Shown: one piece after another, positions 332 through 13,057 of the stretch
Layout of the letters: each line of letters opens with the position of its first letter
Position numbering within the stretch: the first letter of the stretch is position 1
DNA from: a virus
DNA length: 29,270 bases
Direction: 5' to 3' (one strand)
IMG/VR virus record: IMGVR_UViG_3300021414_000010
Location: 1-29,270 of that record
The notes under the pieces: generated by a model
Databases searched by the model: none
What the model saw: only the letters and a program-made list of their open reading frames with translations
Told to the model about the DNA's origin: nothing
Made by a program: the position numbers and the translations under genes

Positions 332-408
332 GCGCCCGTAGCTCAGCTGGATAGAGCATCCGCCTTCTAAGCGGATGGTCGCAGGTTCGAGTCCTGCCGG
401 GTGCGCCA
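332..408 (+). tRNA. tRNA-Arg (anticodon TCT)
   Basis: A complete 77-nt cloverleaf. The acceptor GCGCCCG pairs with CGGGTGC with one G-U pair, the anticodon loop is CTTCTAA with anticodon TCT, the T-loop is GGTTCGAGTCC and CCA is encoded. It is the first tRNA of a three-tRNA operon. Confidence 0.97.
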
Positions 409-469
409 TTAACGGCAGCTTTGGCACAAGTAGCACTCTGATGGAGTGTCTCGGTTACAACGCAATATG

Positions 470-545
470 GTGGGCGTAGCTCAGTTGGTAGAGCACAGGA
501 TTGTGACTCCTGTTGTCGTGGGTTCGATCCCCATCGTCCACCCCA
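470..545 (+). tRNA. tRNA-His (anticodon GTG)
   Basis: A 76-nt tRNA with acceptor GTGGGCG/CGTCCAC, anticodon loop TTGTGAC (GTG), T-loop GGTTCGATCCC, discriminator C and encoded CCA. It lies 61 bases after tRNA-Arg and is presumably processed from the same transcript. Confidence 0.97.
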
Positions 546-602
546 TATTCGAAGAAGGCGCCAGATGCATAATCTGGCGCCTTTGCTTTAAGCGCTTCAC
601 AC

Positions 603-687
603 GCGGACGTGGTGGAATTGGTAGACACACTGGATTTAGGTTCCAGCGCCGCGAGGCGTAAGAGTTCGAGTCTCTTCGTCCGCACCA
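603..687 (+). tRNA. tRNA-Leu (anticodon TAG), probable phage attachment gene
   Basis: An 85-nt class II tRNA with a long variable arm, anticodon loop TTTAGGT (TAG), T-loop AGTTCGAGTCT and encoded CCA. It is the last tRNA before the phage integrase, and integrases of this family insert into tRNA 3' ends. The gene is intact, so phage DNA either restores it or enters after it. The matching repeat should sit at the right prophage end, outside this window. Confidence 0.96.
663..687 (+). other. Putative attL core (3' end of tRNA-Leu)
   Basis: Inferred from the integrase type and position: the T-arm to CCA end of tRNA-Leu is the usual crossover segment. AGTTCGAGTCTCTTC (663-677) reappears at 766-780 with one mismatch (AGTTCCAGTCTCTTC), inside the repeats ahead of int. 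The true core limits cannot be fixed without attR or an uninfected relative. Confidence 0.5.
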
Positions 688-694
688 AACAAGG

Positions 695-797
695 TTCCGA
701 TAGCTTCCAGTAGCTTCCGGGAATCCAGTAGAAAAGCCGCCTAGAGCGGCTTTTTTATTGCGCGTAGTTCCAGTCTCTTCCAGACTCTTCCGGAAAT
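695..797 (+). repeat. Two triplets of 10-bp TTCC repeats (probable integrase arm sites)
   Basis: First set: TTCCGATAGC (695-704), TTCCAGTAGC (705-714), TTCCGGGAAT (715-724). Second set: TTCCAGTCTC (768-777), TTCCAGACTC (778-787), TTCCGGAAAT (788-797). Both have an exact 10-bp period and end in TTCCGGRAAT. They flank a terminator and lie between the tRNA and int, where the attachment-site arm is expected. Direct repeats at one-helical-turn spacing fit arm-type sites for the integrase N-terminal domain; that function is inference. Confidence 0.6.
733..757 (+). terminator. Terminator between tRNA-Leu and int
   Basis: AAAGCCGC (733-740), loop CTAGA, GCGGCTTT (746-753) with a T-run to 756. It would end the tRNA transcript. 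The A-run on its left side means it could also work on the minus strand. Confidence 0.85.
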
Positions 798-799
798 TT

Positions 800-851
800 T
801 TAGTACATTGCGCAGCACATTCTGAATTCGAGTGCTTAGGTGATGTACTAA
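800..851. repeat. 9-bp inverted repeat spanning the int start
   Basis: TTAGTACAT (800-808) and ATGTACTAA (843-851) are a perfect inverted repeat 34 bases apart. The right arm ends on the first base of the int start codon, so it could act as an operator pair or an RNA structure hiding the start. ATG-TAC-TAA in the right arm is also a two-codon reading frame whose stop overlaps the int ATG. Confidence 0.55.
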
Positions 852-2080
852 TGCCCCTGACTGATACCGCCGTCCGGCAGGCCAAGCCCGCCGAAAAAGA
901 CTTCACGCTGCCCGATGCCCACGGGCTGGCGTTGTTTGTGGCCAGCAACGGGACAAAGTCCTGGCATTTCAGATTTTCATGGCACGGCAAGCAGCCACGT
1001 ATCAGCCTGGGCAAATACCCTGACATCTCCCTGAAAGACGCTCGTGAACTGCGGGATGAAGCGCGCAAGCTTGTGGCGAAGGGGATTGACCCTCGGCTGC
1101 AGCGTCGCCATGACCAGCGCACTGCTGGGGCGAAGACTGAAAACACCTTCGAATCAGTGGCGCGCCGCTGGCATGCCTTCAAGGTTCCCCGTCTTACGGA
1201 TGGGCGCAAGGGCAGCGCCGCCCAGTCCGCGCGCTACCTTGAGAAGGATCTGATCCCGGCTCTCGGGAAATTACCCATCGCAGAAATCAAACGCGCCGAT
1301 GTACTAGCGACGATCCGAAAGGTCGAGGCCCGCGGTTCTCTCCACGTGGCCGAGAAGGTGCGCACCTGGTTGAACCAGATCTTCCGATTCGCCATCGCTG
1401 AGGGGCTGCTGGAAATCAACCCGGCCGCCGATCTGGATATCGTCGCCGCCGTACAACCGCCGGTGAAACACAACCCGGCGCTCGTGGGCGATGACGAGCT
1501 CAAGGCCTTCGTTAAGGCCCTCAGCGCATTCAGCGGCTCGGTGTTCACCAAGCGGGCGATCCGGTTGCTGTTGCTGACTGGCGTGCGTACAGGCGAAATG
1601 CGGCATTGTTCGCCCGACCAGTTCGACCTTGAGGCCGAACTGTGGACGGTGCCAGCGGATGGAGTGAAACAGCTGCGGAGCAGAGCAAAGGTTAATGGTG
1701 AAGCAATACCGGCCTATCTGGTGCCGCTGTCGCGGCAGGCGGTAGAAGAGGTGCGCGAGATGCTCAAGTTGACCGGTAAGGCTCGATACCTCTTCCAGAA
1801 TCGCAACGATCCTACAAAGGTGATGAGCGAAAACACGGTCAACTCGGCACTGAAACGCATGGGATATGAAGGCAAGCTGACGGGCCACGGGATCCGGGGC
1901 ACGATTTCAACGGCCTTGAACGAGAAGGGGTACAGCTCAGATTGGATCGAGGCGCAACTTTCGCACGTTGGCAGTGACAAGGTTCGTCGAAGCTACAACC
2001 ACGCGAAGTACGTGGAGCAGCGGCGAGGGATGATGCAGGACTGGGCGGATTACCTCGATTCACTGGAGGCCGCAGACTGA
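851..2080 (+). CDS. int: Phage integrase, tyrosine recombinase of the P4 type
   Basis: A 409-residue tyrosine recombinase that would integrate and excise the prophage at tRNA-Leu. The N-terminus (about 1-85) is the DUF4102 arm-binding domain, with GLALFVASNGTKSWHFRF and the SLGKYPDISLKDAR motif. A core-binding SAM-like domain follows (about 95-185), then the catalytic domain. Catalytic residues seen are R246 (TGVRTGE), H346 and R349 (GHGIRG), H372 (LSHVG) and the nucleophile Y382 (SYNHA). Length is normal for the family. The ATG at 851 was chosen because the conserved N-terminus begins there; the frame is open upstream to 758 but runs through attachment-site repeats. A weak AGG lies 10 bases before it. 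Its 3' end overlaps the convergent AlpA-like gene by 31 bases. Confidence 0.96.
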   Translation: MPLTDTAVRQAKPAEKDFTLPDAHGLALFVASNGTKSWHFRFSWHGKQPRISLGKYPDISLKDARELRDEARKLVAKGIDPRLQRRHDQRTAGAKTENTFESVARRWHAFKVPRLTDGRKGSAAQSARYLEKDLIPALGKLPIAEIKRADVLATIRKVEARGSLHVAEKVRTWLNQIFRFAIAEGLLEINPAADLDIVAAVQPPVKHNPALVGDDELKAFVKALSAFSGSVFTKRAIRLLLLTGVRTGEMRHCSPDQFDLEAELWTVPADGVKQLRSRAKVNGEAIPAYLVPLSRQAVEEVREMLKLTGKARYLFQNRNDPTKVMSENTVNSALKRMGYEGKLTGHGIRGTISTALNEKGYSSDWIEAQLSHVGSDKVRRSYNHAKYVEQRRGMMQDWADYLDSLEAAD

Positions 2081-10321: not shown

Positions 10322-10969
10322 CTACAGACCGGTCATCTTTGCGTCGATCACCCGGCCAATGAAGCGGCAGTTATTGTCCAGCTCGATCGTCCGATACGCC
10401 TCATTGAGAGGACGCAGGTACCTATATCCCGCGTCTTCGACGTACTGTTTGAAGGTCTTCTCGCCCGAGTCGAGCATCTCCACCACGTAATACTTGCCGT
10501 TGATGATCTCAGCATCTGGTTTCACCAGGATCAGCGAACCCTCCGGAAAGCTGGGGTTTCCTTTGCAGGTCATCGAATGGCCGCTGACGGTGAGCCAGTA
10601 GGCTTCGTGCCCAGCGTTCTCCGATGACTCGATAAGCCGATGCGTTGCGCCAATCTTGCTGGGCGCCTCGGTCATCTCGCCGGCCTCAACCCAGCTGATC
10701 AGCGGGTATTTACGGGCCTCGCGGAATGGCTGCTGCGCCTCAAATACGTTCCCAGCATCGACGTCCCGGCTGTCCATCGTCGTTTGCTGCGCCGCTAACT
10801 TGATGTCGAGGATCGTGAAGATCTGCTTCAGCTTCTCAGGCGTTGTGCTCTGCAGCCCGCGCTCTAGGCGCGAGAGGTTTCCAGAGTCCGAGTCGATCTG
10901 GTGAGCCAGTTCCTCAAGGGAAAGCTTCTTCGCTTTACGCGCGTTTCTGATGATTTGTCCGATATCCAT
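10322..10969 (-). CDS. cI: CI-type prophage repressor with S24 self-cleavage domain
   Basis: 215 residues. An N-terminal XRE-type helix-turn-helix (about 1-60, recognition helix DSGNLSRLERG) is joined to a C-terminal S24/LexA-like peptidase domain (about 88-215). The self-cleavage bond is A96-G97 in SWVEAGEM; the catalytic dyad is S132 (GHSM) and K174 (TFKQY). The protein should hold the lysogenic state by binding the 15-bp operators on both sides and be inactivated by RecA-stimulated cleavage. It is divergent from cro across the right operators and has its own terminator. The ribosome site is weak (GGAAAATCGCCGC before ATG), normal for a repressor. Confidence 0.95.
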   Translation of the reverse strand: MDIGQIIRNARKAKKLSLEELAHQIDSDSGNLSRLERGLQSTTPEKLKQIFTILDIKLAAQQTTMDSRDVDAGNVFEAQQPFREARKYPLISWVEAGEMTEAPSKIGATHRLIESSENAGHEAYWLTVSGHSMTCKGNPSFPEGSLILVKPDAEIINGKYYVVEMLDSGEKTFKQYVEDAGYRYLRPLNEAYRTIELDNNCRFIGRVIDAKMTGL

Positions 10970-11084: not shown

Positions 11085-11333
11085 ATGACTCCACTGAAGA
11101 AAGCTCGAATCGCCCGCAAGTGGACGCTCGCCGATGTTTCGGCTCGTCTCGCTTTGCATGGCGACACCATCGACTCCGGCAACCTCTCGCGCGTTGAGCG
11201 AGGCGTGCAGCGTGCGTCCGCCACCTTGGCCGAAGGGCTGAGCCGGGTGTTCGATGGTGAGATCACTGAAATCCACATCCTGTATCCGGAGCGCTTCACA
11301 AGCGAAACCGGAGACTCCACGGCGGCGGCGTGA
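11085..11333 (+). CDS. cro: Cro-like repressor
   Basis: 82 residues with an XRE helix-turn-helix (about 5-60): KKARIARKWTLADVSARLAL then DSGNLSRVERGVQ. The recognition segment is nearly the same as in CI (DSGNLSRLERGLQ), so both should bind the same CTGC-N7-GCAG operators with opposite preference, as CI and Cro of lambda do. No peptidase domain. First gene of the rightward operon, with AGGG about 10 bases before the ATG and operators in its promoter. Confidence 0.88.
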   Translation: MTPLKKARIARKWTLADVSARLALHGDTIDSGNLSRVERGVQRASATLAEGLSRVFDGEITEIHILYPERFTSETGDSTAAA

Positions 11334-11335
11334 TC

Positions 11336-11644
11336 ATGTCGACGTCGCCATTGAACCAAGAGCAGACCGTAAGGGCCCGCAAGAACTACGCGGTCCTCAT
11401 GCAGAAACTTGCATCGATCGGCAACGGGCCCGTCGCGCTTGCAGTCGGTTGCGACGAGGCAACAATCAGCCGCATGAAGCCTGAGAAGTTCGAGCAGTTC
11501 GCAGCCATCCTGGCCGTGCTCGACCTCAAGATCGTGCCCAGCGAGATGCGCTGCTTCAATCAGCGGGACATTGAAGCGATCTTCCACCAGGCCAAGCGCT
11601 GGATGGAGCACGTGCAGCACGTCGACCAGTTGGAAGAGGACTGA
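11336..11644 (+). CDS. cII: CII-family transcriptional regulator
   Basis: 102 residues. The core (RARKNYAVLMQKLASIGNGP, VALAVGCDEATISRMK, FEQFAAILAVLDLKIVPSEM) fits phage CII proteins, which activate the repressor-establishment and integrase promoters and favour lysogeny. It sits between cro and the replication gene, where cII belongs. ATG 11336 was chosen; a GTG at 11330 overlapping the cro stop would add two residues. The N-terminus has few charges and the C-terminal helix (IFHQAKRWMEHVQHVD) may be the protease-sensitive tail. Confidence 0.85.
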   Translation: MSTSPLNQEQTVRARKNYAVLMQKLASIGNGPVALAVGCDEATISRMKPEKFEQFAAILAVLDLKIVPSEMRCFNQRDIEAIFHQAKRWMEHVQHVDQLEED

Positions 11645-11646
11645 CC

Positions 11647-12534
11647 ATGGCAGCCCTTCCATACATGCAACTCTACGTTGCCGATTACCTGGCCGACACG
11701 ATGCACCTCACCACTGAGGAGCACGGTGCGTACTTGCTGCTGATCTTCAACTACTGGCAGACCGGAAAGCCGATTCCAGTCTCTCGACTCGCCCGGATTG
11801 CGCGGCTTTCGAACGACCGTTGGACGGACGTTGAACGGTCGTTGAACGAGTTCTTCAACGAGCGTGATAACGAATGGGTTCACGACCGAATTGAGCGCGA
11901 TCTTGAAGCTGTTCACGCGACCCAAAATCAGCGAATTGCAGCGGGAAAGGCGTCAGCGGAGGCTCGCAAGCAGGCCGCAAAGTCCCGTAAATCGAAGGCT
12001 GTGAACGAGCGTTCAACGGGCGTTGAAGTTTCGTTGAACGAAAACTCAACGAATAGAGAAGAGAAGAGAACAGACACAGATATATCTACTTCTTCTCTGC
12101 ACGACGCCCCTGATACCCGCACGAAATTCAGCATGACTCCGCAATGGCAGCCGGGAGCCAAGAGCTTTCAGGCAGTGCTGACGATGAACGCCATGGCCGG
12201 GCAGACCTTCGATGCCGACCAGCTGAACGAATTCAGGTCTTTCTGGACCGCTTCCCCTGATGAGCACCGCACCCAGGCCAAATGGGAGCACGCGCTCGCC
12301 CAATTTCTGAAACGCGACCTGCGCCACAAGCAGGCCTCGGGGAGAACTACCGATGGACGTAAAAACACAACCGGTGGCCGACCTGCTCGGCAAGGTCCTA
12401 TGTCGGCCGTCGACCGAGTCAAGCAGCACATCATCGATCGAGAAGCTGCCGCAGGGGCTGATGGACAAGCTCTGGATCAAGATGACCGAGATGTACGGCC
12501 ACCGCTGGACGTCGAATTTCGGCGAGAAAGCTGA
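11647..12534 (+). CDS. Replication initiator: DUF1376 plus DnaT domain (lambda-O role)
   Basis: 295 residues. DUF1376 at about 1-90 (YMQLYVADYLADTMHLTTEE, GAYLLLIFNYW) is a winged-helix domain of phage replication proteins. A hydrophilic linker (95-158) leads to a DnaT-type single-strand-DNA-binding domain at about 160-223 (FSMTPQWQPG, LNEFRSFWTASPDEHRTQAK, WEHALAQFLKR). The C-terminus (RVKQHIIDREAAA, DDRDVRPPLDVEFRRES) is a common ending in such proteins. It should bind the origin and recruit the helicase loader coded next. The coding DNA holds two arrays of 11-bp iterons and an A/T- and purine-rich tract, so the origin is probably inside the gene. GAGGACTGACC precedes the ATG. The last 182 bases also encode the start of the next gene. 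Confidence 0.9.
   Translation: MAALPYMQLYVADYLADTMHLTTEEHGAYLLLIFNYWQTGKPIPVSRLARIARLSNDRWTDVERSLNEFFNERDNEWVHDRIERDLEAVHATQNQRIAAGKASAEARKQAAKSRKSKAVNERSTGVEVSLNENSTNREEKRTDTDISTSSLHDAPDTRTKFSMTPQWQPGAKSFQAVLTMNAMAGQTFDADQLNEFRSFWTASPDEHRTQAKWEHALAQFLKRDLRHKQASGRTTDGRKNTTGGRPARQGPMSAVDRVKQHIIDREAAAGADGQALDQDDRDVRPPLDVEFRRES
11807..12098 (+). other. Probable replication origin: two arrays of 11-bp iterons and an A/T-rich tract
   Basis: Array 1, exact 11-bp period from 11807: TTTCGAACGAC, CGTTGGACGGA (11818), CGTTGAACGGT (11829), CGTTGAACGAG (11840), TTCTTCAACGA (11851). Array 2 from 11999: CTGTGAACGAG, CGTTCAACGGG (12010), CGTTGAAGTTT (12021), CGTTGAACGAA (12032), AACTCAACGAA (12043). Array 2 runs into a purine-rich, A/T-rich stretch (12051-12098) containing AGAGAAGA and its reverse complement. 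Iterons followed by an unwinding tract inside the initiator gene is the lambda ori plan. Confidence 0.75.
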
Positions 12535-13057
12535 TCCTGATCATTCGTGGGCATCGGTGCTCAAGGGATTGACCAAAGAGCAGCTCGCCAACGGCCTCAA
12601 CGTCCTGGTCGACAAGGCCACTGAATTCGATTGGCCGCCGCCTGCGAACGTGTTCCGCGCGATGTGCCTGCAAGTGCCGGGGATGCCATCCGAAACCGAC
12701 GCATGGACCGAAGCCCTGATCGGTGTTTACAGCCACGAGGCTGTACGCATTGCCGCAGAAGCAACCAGCACGTTCGATTTGAGAACCGCGAAGCAGGGCG
12801 ACAAAGCGTTGCGTCAGCGCTTCGAGCGCAATTACGCCATCGTCATGCGCCGCGCTCAGACAGGCCAGCCATTGAACGGCCGTATTGCAATGGGCATTGG
12901 CAACGACTCAGCACGCCCACGCGAGCAGATCCAGCTCGAGCACTCTCGCAAGGAGGCCGAAGCGCAGGTGATCGCCCAGGGCATTCCAACCAACGGCCAA
13001 TCCGCTCGAGCACTGCTGCTGGCGAAGATGGGCATCCGGAGAGACAGCCATGTCTGA
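12353..13057 (+). CDS. Replication protein P-like helicase loader
   Basis: 234 residues. The central block (LPQGLMDKLWIKMTEMYGHR, SNFGEKADPDHSWASVL, FDWPPPANVFRAMC) resembles lambda P proteins, which bring the host DnaB helicase to the origin. It follows the O-like gene as P follows O. ATG 12353 has GGGGAGAACTACCG upstream; an internal ATG at 12461 would avoid most of the overlap but lacks an equally good site. The first 60 codons lie in another frame over the end of the initiator gene, and both frames look coding. The protein ends 8 bases into rusA. Confidence 0.85.
   Translation: MDVKTQPVADLLGKVLCRPSTESSSTSSIEKLPQGLMDKLWIKMTEMYGHRWTSNFGEKADPDHSWASVLKGLTKEQLANGLNVLVDKATEFDWPPPANVFRAMCLQVPGMPSETDAWTEALIGVYSHEAVRIAAEATSTFDLRTAKQGDKALRQRFERNYAIVMRRAQTGQPLNGRIAMGIGNDSARPREQIQLEHSRKEAEAQVIAQGIPTNGQSARALLLAKMGIRRDSHV

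Follow-up and report, generated by a model that had tools for sequence, protein, structure and literature searches.

A predicted replication origin with one-turn iterons inside a phage DUF1376-DnaT initiator gene

The initiator gene of a lambda-like early operon carries two arrays of short palindromic repeats that recur every 11 bp, the second of which adjoins a weak DNA duplex, in a 29,270-base virus record that we analysed as a whole (hereafter the window). The choice of codons under these repeats bears the marks of selection on DNA. From the sequence of this segment and of its relatives, we consider it very likely that it is a phage replication origin situated within its own initiator gene, in which one-turn iterons bound by the initiator would be combined with a melting region and a helicase loader.

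The initiator gene, its two arrays and the adjoining weak duplex

Pfam recognises two domains in the 295-amino-acid product of the gene at 11647-12534, namely DUF1376 at residues 5-86 (PF07120, E 7e-26; 90.8 bits against a curated cut-off of 30.1) and a DnaT domain at residues 161-231 (PF17948, E 8e-14), the architecture that had been named in an earlier note on this DNA. PHROG matches of this protein are to primosomal/replication families; an O-type N-terminal domain was not found, Pfam giving DUF1376 and DnaT only, and RepA_N (PF06970) had no match at E<=1. The neighbourhood is a lambda-like early operon, with a Cro-like gene further upstream and RusA further downstream (Pfam/PHROG) in addition to the following features:

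10322-10969, minus strand: CI-like repressor gene, upstream of the initiator gene (Pfam/PHROG)
11330..11644, plus strand: cII-like regulator gene, directly 5' of the initiator gene (Pfam Phage_CII, phrog_725)
11647..12534, plus strand: initiator gene, 295 amino acids (Pfam and PHROG)
11807..11866, no strand assigned: array 1, within the DUF1376 code, three units spaced by 11 bp: CGTTGGACG (11818-11826), CGTTGAACG (11829-11837) and CGTTGAACG (11840-11848)
12004..12051, no strand assigned: array 2, coding for the linker, three units spaced by 11 bp: CGTTCAACG (12010-12018), CGTTGAAGT (12021-12029) and CGTTGAACG (12032-12040)
12034..12094, no strand assigned: predicted DNA unwinding element adjoining array 2 (duplex stability), with the purine-rich part AATAGAGAAGAGAAGAGAACAGACACAGATATA 3' of array 2
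12353..13057, plus strand: P-like helicase loader gene, downstream of the initiator gene (phrog_109 'P-like helicase loader', E 1e-18)

The first 182 bases of the loader reading frame (12353-12534) are shared, in another frame, with the end of the initiator gene, and the PHROG match favours this early start. At the left end of the window (332-2080), tRNA-Arg, tRNA-His and tRNA-Leu genes directly precede an integrase-like reading frame (758-2080), so that this end may represent host DNA with an attachment site.

The unit of both arrays is the palindrome CGTT-n-AACG, placed every 11 bp, and each array consists of three good units with flanking half-sites. Array 1 is flanked by AACG at 11812 and by an inverted CAACG at 11856-11860, whose AACG half-site (11857) lies one base off the 11-bp phase, and its 5' flank at 11807 (TTTCGAACG) is a weak unit; array 2, which lies about 360 bp into the gene, is flanked by AACG at 12004 and CAACG at 12047-12051. 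CGTT or AACG half-sites begin at 11812, 11818, 11829, 11834, 11840, 11845, 11857 and 11869 in the region of array 1, and at 12004, 12010, 12015, 12021, 12032, 12037 and 12048 in that of array 2. The sequence CGTTnAACG occurs four times in the 29,270 bp, each time inside the initiator gene. The description of the arrays in the earlier note was thus partly confirmed, and it was largely right. The strict 11-bp spacing is exact at 11818/11829/11840 and at 12010/12021/12032, and the separation of about 150 bp within one DUF1376-DnaT gene compares with about 155 bp by our measurement. The count of five units per array was generous, the remainder beyond the three good units being degenerate or inverted flanks or half-sites. 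The unit reported as inverted in array 2, CGTTCAACG, is present; the sole difference from CGTTGAACG lies at the palindrome's centre, so that its orientation means little.

By duplex stability, the stretch at 12034-12094 ranks second from the bottom among the 60-bp segments of the 29-kb window and lowest of all between 11,000 and 13,500. An A/T-rich purine tract had been described after array 2, and the bases at 12056-12090 indeed have 37% GC (60% in the window) and 71% purine. The weakest 40 bp of the gene start just behind array 2, at gene position 397-420, in nearly all relatives, and in most of the GTCAC class described below the least stable duplex likewise directly follows the linker array. 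GC skew was set aside, as gene orientation switches at the same place.

Selection on the DNA and the 11-bp lattice among relatives

When synonymous codons were permuted with the protein kept constant (2,000 shuffles, giving a p floor of 0.0005), lag 11 was the strongest lag in both arrays, with self-match values of z 3.9 in array 1 and z 5.0 in array 2 (p 0.0005 in each case). The best 33-base stretch has 24 of 33 lag-11 matches; two null models were applied, and in neither did any of 3,000 shuffles attain this number. The core words, when merely counted, are less extreme, being equalled in 12 to 30 of 3,000 shuffles, and it is therefore the spacing that stands out. As controls, the same lag test recovered the known iterons of lambda (lags 20, 23 and 24) and the published 11-bp array of phage L.

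Codon choice in the relatives provided a consistent picture. The codons of array 1 are almost invariant among 45 relatives (Val62 GTT in 44 of 44, Ser65 TCG in 42 of 42, Leu66 TTG in 42 of 45, Arg58 CGT in 41 of 45), and so are those of array 2 (Thr ACG in 24 of 24 and 16 of 16, Ser TCA in 25 of 29, Val GTT in 23 of 23, Leu TTG in 16 of 16), while elsewhere in the relatives' genes each of these codons accounts for 11-24% of the occurrences of its amino acid. Binomial P values against the genes' own codon usage range from 1e-13 to 1e-37 and serve as a guide only, because the relatives are not independent. Judged by these sequences, the repeats are selected as DNA and not as protein. That they should be a by-product of protein sequence or codon bias is extremely improbable: peptide motifs resembling NERST and SLNE do recur, but the frame shifts at every unit with an 11-bp period, the codon choice in the arrays departs from the genes' own usage, and the synonymous shuffles, which fail to give the repeats, rule out a protein-repeat or codon-bias artefact.

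Scans of IMG/VR and GTDB yielded 89 related loci; a scan for Acinetobacter (L100) gave one new locus only. Almost all members of the Pseudomonas and enterobacterial group have units that begin at 172/183/194 and 364/375/386 of the gene. In the earlier note, relatives with the same initiator but lacking the repeats at codon-neutral positions had been named as the outcome that would speak against the origin. The relatives keep the arrays, the 35 non-redundant members of the CGTT group having array 1 in 29 cases, array 2 in 32 and both in 27, and their synonymous positions are near-frozen.

Within the linker code of these 35 genes, half-sites on the same strand lie 11, 22 or 33 bp apart, AACG follows CGTT at 5, 16 or 27 bp, and CGTT follows AACG at 6, 17 or 28 bp, which corresponds to the lattice classes 11n, 11n+5 and 11n+6. 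The region of array 1 shows the same lattice with some one-base slips, and the 3' part of the gene lacks it. The relatives' lag-11 z averages 3.0 over the linker and 2.6 over the region of array 1; it is about 0 in 49 downstream reading frames, and when the 230 bp that follow the relatives' genes were examined in 69 cases, none contained two or more 11-bp pairs. A fixed helical phase between the two arrays was not supported, the spacer of one relative (L015) being 87 bp shorter. Genes that combine the same DUF1376 with a different C-terminus, such as L018, keep the CGTT arrays. In the DUF1376 gene at L163:2501-3163, possibly part of a broken prophage, unrelated sequence cuts the linker array after one unit.

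Other words and other N-terminal domains

DUF1376 genes outside the CGTT group carry other words. The word of the rhizobial genes is TGCA, with spacings of 5, 6, 11, 17, 22 and 28 bp that fall on the same lattice as in the CGTT group; lag 11 has a mean z of 2.7 (11 of 19 genes at p<0.01), and alanine is encoded by GCA in 31 of 37 cases within the repeats against 17% elsewhere. Rac prophage ydaU genes have a TGTT/AACA-like word with a weak 11-bp signal, and the Acinetobacter/Vibrio genes have AACC repeats of less regular spacing. CGTTnAACG was absent from genes with a related DnaT part (47-70% identical there) but without DUF1376; these have other arrays instead. Iterons had been expected to change in step with DUF1376, and this holds for the rhizobial TGCA and, more weakly, for the TGTT/AACA of Rac ydaU. 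It fails for L105, a locus whose DUF1376 is nearly identical to that of Rac ydaU and which has CGTAG repeats of partly similar spacing, so that the iteron word is not set by DUF1376 alone. This locus (L105:2001-3233) is one of three, with L306 and L088:3001-4098, that encode DUF1376-T5orf172-DnaT proteins, the T5orf172 domain following DUF1376; in the sequences of L105 and L088, CGTAG/CTACG repeats lie in the T5orf172 part in place of the usual arrays.

Two further reading frames, L218:2001-2501 and L223:1995-2501, fuse a rhizobial DUF1376 (first ~75 amino acids, 96% and 82% identical to the query initiator) to an HNH nuclease-like part, and in both the next gene resembles a different initiator. 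These fusions recall the ICP1 protein Odn, an origin-directed nuclease of RepA_N-T5orf172 type (PMC8263062).

One-turn spacing extends to DnaT-type initiators with other N-terminal domains. In the GTCAC class (L087:2683-3597 and ~22 relatives, also in E. coli prophages), nearly all of 22 representatives have two arrays of the word at a spacing of 10-11 bp; the first falls in the code for the N-domain (about 129-166) and the second in that for the linker (about 387-436), with mean z at lag 10 of 1.9 and 3.0, respectively. In the GTAAC class, L052 and a few relatives repeat GTAAC every 11 bp, and others have GAAAC; the lag-11 signal is confined to the linker (mean z 2.3). We put forward only tentatively, and lean somewhat against it, that one-turn lattices are a general class of origin, in which initiators with a number of unrelated N-domains (DUF1376, the GTCAC class, the GTAAC class and phage L gp18) would each assemble into an unbroken helical array along words 10-11 bp apart, frequently with two arrays and one of these within the code for the DNA-binding domain, the spacing being conserved while word and domain are exchanged.

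The origin reading, its alternatives and known systems

For the identity of the binder, the loop and the order of events, we infer the following scheme. The initiator, most likely via its N-terminal winged-helix-like DUF1376, would bind the CGTT/AACG sites; since these recur once per helical turn, the bound copies would align on one face of the DNA. Array 2 would be the opening array beside the weak purine-rich duplex (12034-12094), and array 1, about 170 bp upstream in the code for the DNA-binding domain, would offer a second loading or looping site. The DnaT-type C-terminal domain would then hold the opened strand, and the P-like loader would bring the host DnaB helicase.

The structural model of DUF1376 (residues 1-109, pLDDT 87.7) has the order H-H-H-H-beta-beta-H and is winged-helix-like. 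Sequence comparison with solved structures gave nothing convincing (best E 0.06, a designed protein), and Foldseek gave no match in the PDB at E <= 0.001. The leading VIA-align matches are mostly winged-helix proteins, the best being ORC2 at Z 6.8, below the trust level of 8; the N-domains of the plasmid Rep proteins 4pql, 4pt7 and 5kbj scored Z 5.1-5.5, among many winged helices, and at Z 5-7, which is too low, we claim kinship with neither ORC2 nor the plasmid Rep N-domains. The model of the full-length protein has a low pLDDT of 57.8 and was used only for the linker, which is predicted to be disordered (residues 116-162, pLDDT <50). Array 2 and the melting region code for this segment, whose predicted disorder explains why the code for a linker can accommodate an origin. 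Array 1, which codes for the helix at residues 56-66, is more surprising, because the protein strongly constrains the code with which it overlaps.

DUF1376 is probably, though not certainly, what reads the word. A rather unlikely alternative is that the segment is an origin whose word is read by the part following DUF1376 (a basic helix or an inserted T5orf172) or by another protein, with DUF1376 serving oligomerisation or loading; the weakness of the fold match and the CGTAG repeats beside the near-unchanged ydaU DUF1376 of L105, partly similar in spacing, would suit it. Yet L015 keeps its CGTT arrays although a large part of the basic segment is absent, the words of rhizobial and gamma-proteobacterial genes diverge together with their DUF1376, and the model of this domain resembles a winged helix.

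The function of the arrays may also be read in other ways. It is improbable that they serve the early operon as an autoregulatory operator and not as an origin: array 1 lies early in the gene, and a repressor, too, could make use of repeats recognised by a winged helix, but both arrays are within coding sequence, array 2 well inside it, the weakest duplex lies directly 3' of array 2, and origins or proposed origins of lambda, P22 and phage L occupy this very place. A more serious possibility, although one to which we give less than even weight, is that array 2 and the melting region alone are the origin and that array 1 is a separate control element for copy control or handcuffing. Six of the 35 relatives lack array 1 or have a weak form of it, and five of these six keep array 2; no array is present in the domain code of the rhizobial and Rac groups; against this stand the retention of array 1 in the other 29 with frozen codons and the recurrence of an array in the N-domain code of the GTCAC class.

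Neither an origin within an initiator gene nor an 11-bp iteron is without precedent, because in-gene origins have been established or put forward in lambda and P22 and demonstrated in pSK41-type plasmids, and 11-bp repeats are known from phage L and pMV158. The plan of lambda ori invoked in the earlier note, with arrays in the initiator gene, an adjoining melting region and a P-like loader downstream, is borne out. As in lambda gene O and P22 gene 18, repeats lie in the middle of the initiator gene next to an AT-rich region, with a loader or helicase gene downstream, and array 2 falls in code for a disordered linker between the DNA-binding and C-terminal domains. Lambda differs in having one cluster of four iterons of 18-19 bp, 20-24 bp from start to start, in contrast to the 9-bp words every 11 bp, the two clusters and the DUF1376-DnaT initiator seen here; features of descent from lambda O/ori are lacking, the period being 11 bp in place of 18-19-bp iterons about two turns apart. 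Gene 18 of Salmonella phage L, reported as a likely origin, has six imprecise 11-bp repeats (PMC8022706) and resembles our case in having such repeats in an initiator gene (GTCCAAC at 398/409/420 and 464/475); it differs in lacking DUF1376, in its word and in having repeats in the linker only, and its N-terminal part gave no lag-11 signal in the synonymous-shuffle test.

In pSK41-type RepA_N plasmids, the origin likewise lies centrally in rep and codes for a linker, the winged helix of the N-domain binds it, and modules are exchangeable; the RepA_N domain of PLE covaries with its origin. A one-turn lattice is not described for these plasmids, and the initiator studied here lacks a RepA_N Pfam match, the fold likeness being limited to the Z values given above. 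RepB of pMV158 binds three 11-bp repeats; it is a rolling-circle HUH nuclease whose binding site is usually upstream of rep in such plasmids, and there is no link by descent. The Rac prophage of E. coli, with its active but repressed origin oriJ, has a DUF1376 initiator-like gene (ydaU) followed by a gene for a loader-like ATP-binding protein, and differs in its word and weak signal.

DUF1376 in the role of an initiator whose gene contains the origin, a plan with two arrays, a half-turn lattice, and constant spacing under different words and N-domains were not found in the literature searched, a weak absence given that most subscription journals were outside its scope. Titles and abstracts of those papers in the literature searched that name DUF1376 do not present it as an initiator, and one of them merely includes it among domains of unknown function. 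The DUF1376 family is large and without an assigned function, and its tie to in-gene origins gives it a testable role. Through this link, many temperate phages gain a predicted origin. One-turn spacing that survives changes of both word and binding domain suggests a directly testable way in which initiators assemble, and laboratory material exists, because 2,159 of the 5,426 complete E. coli genomes contain the array-bearing 5' part of the GTCAC class.
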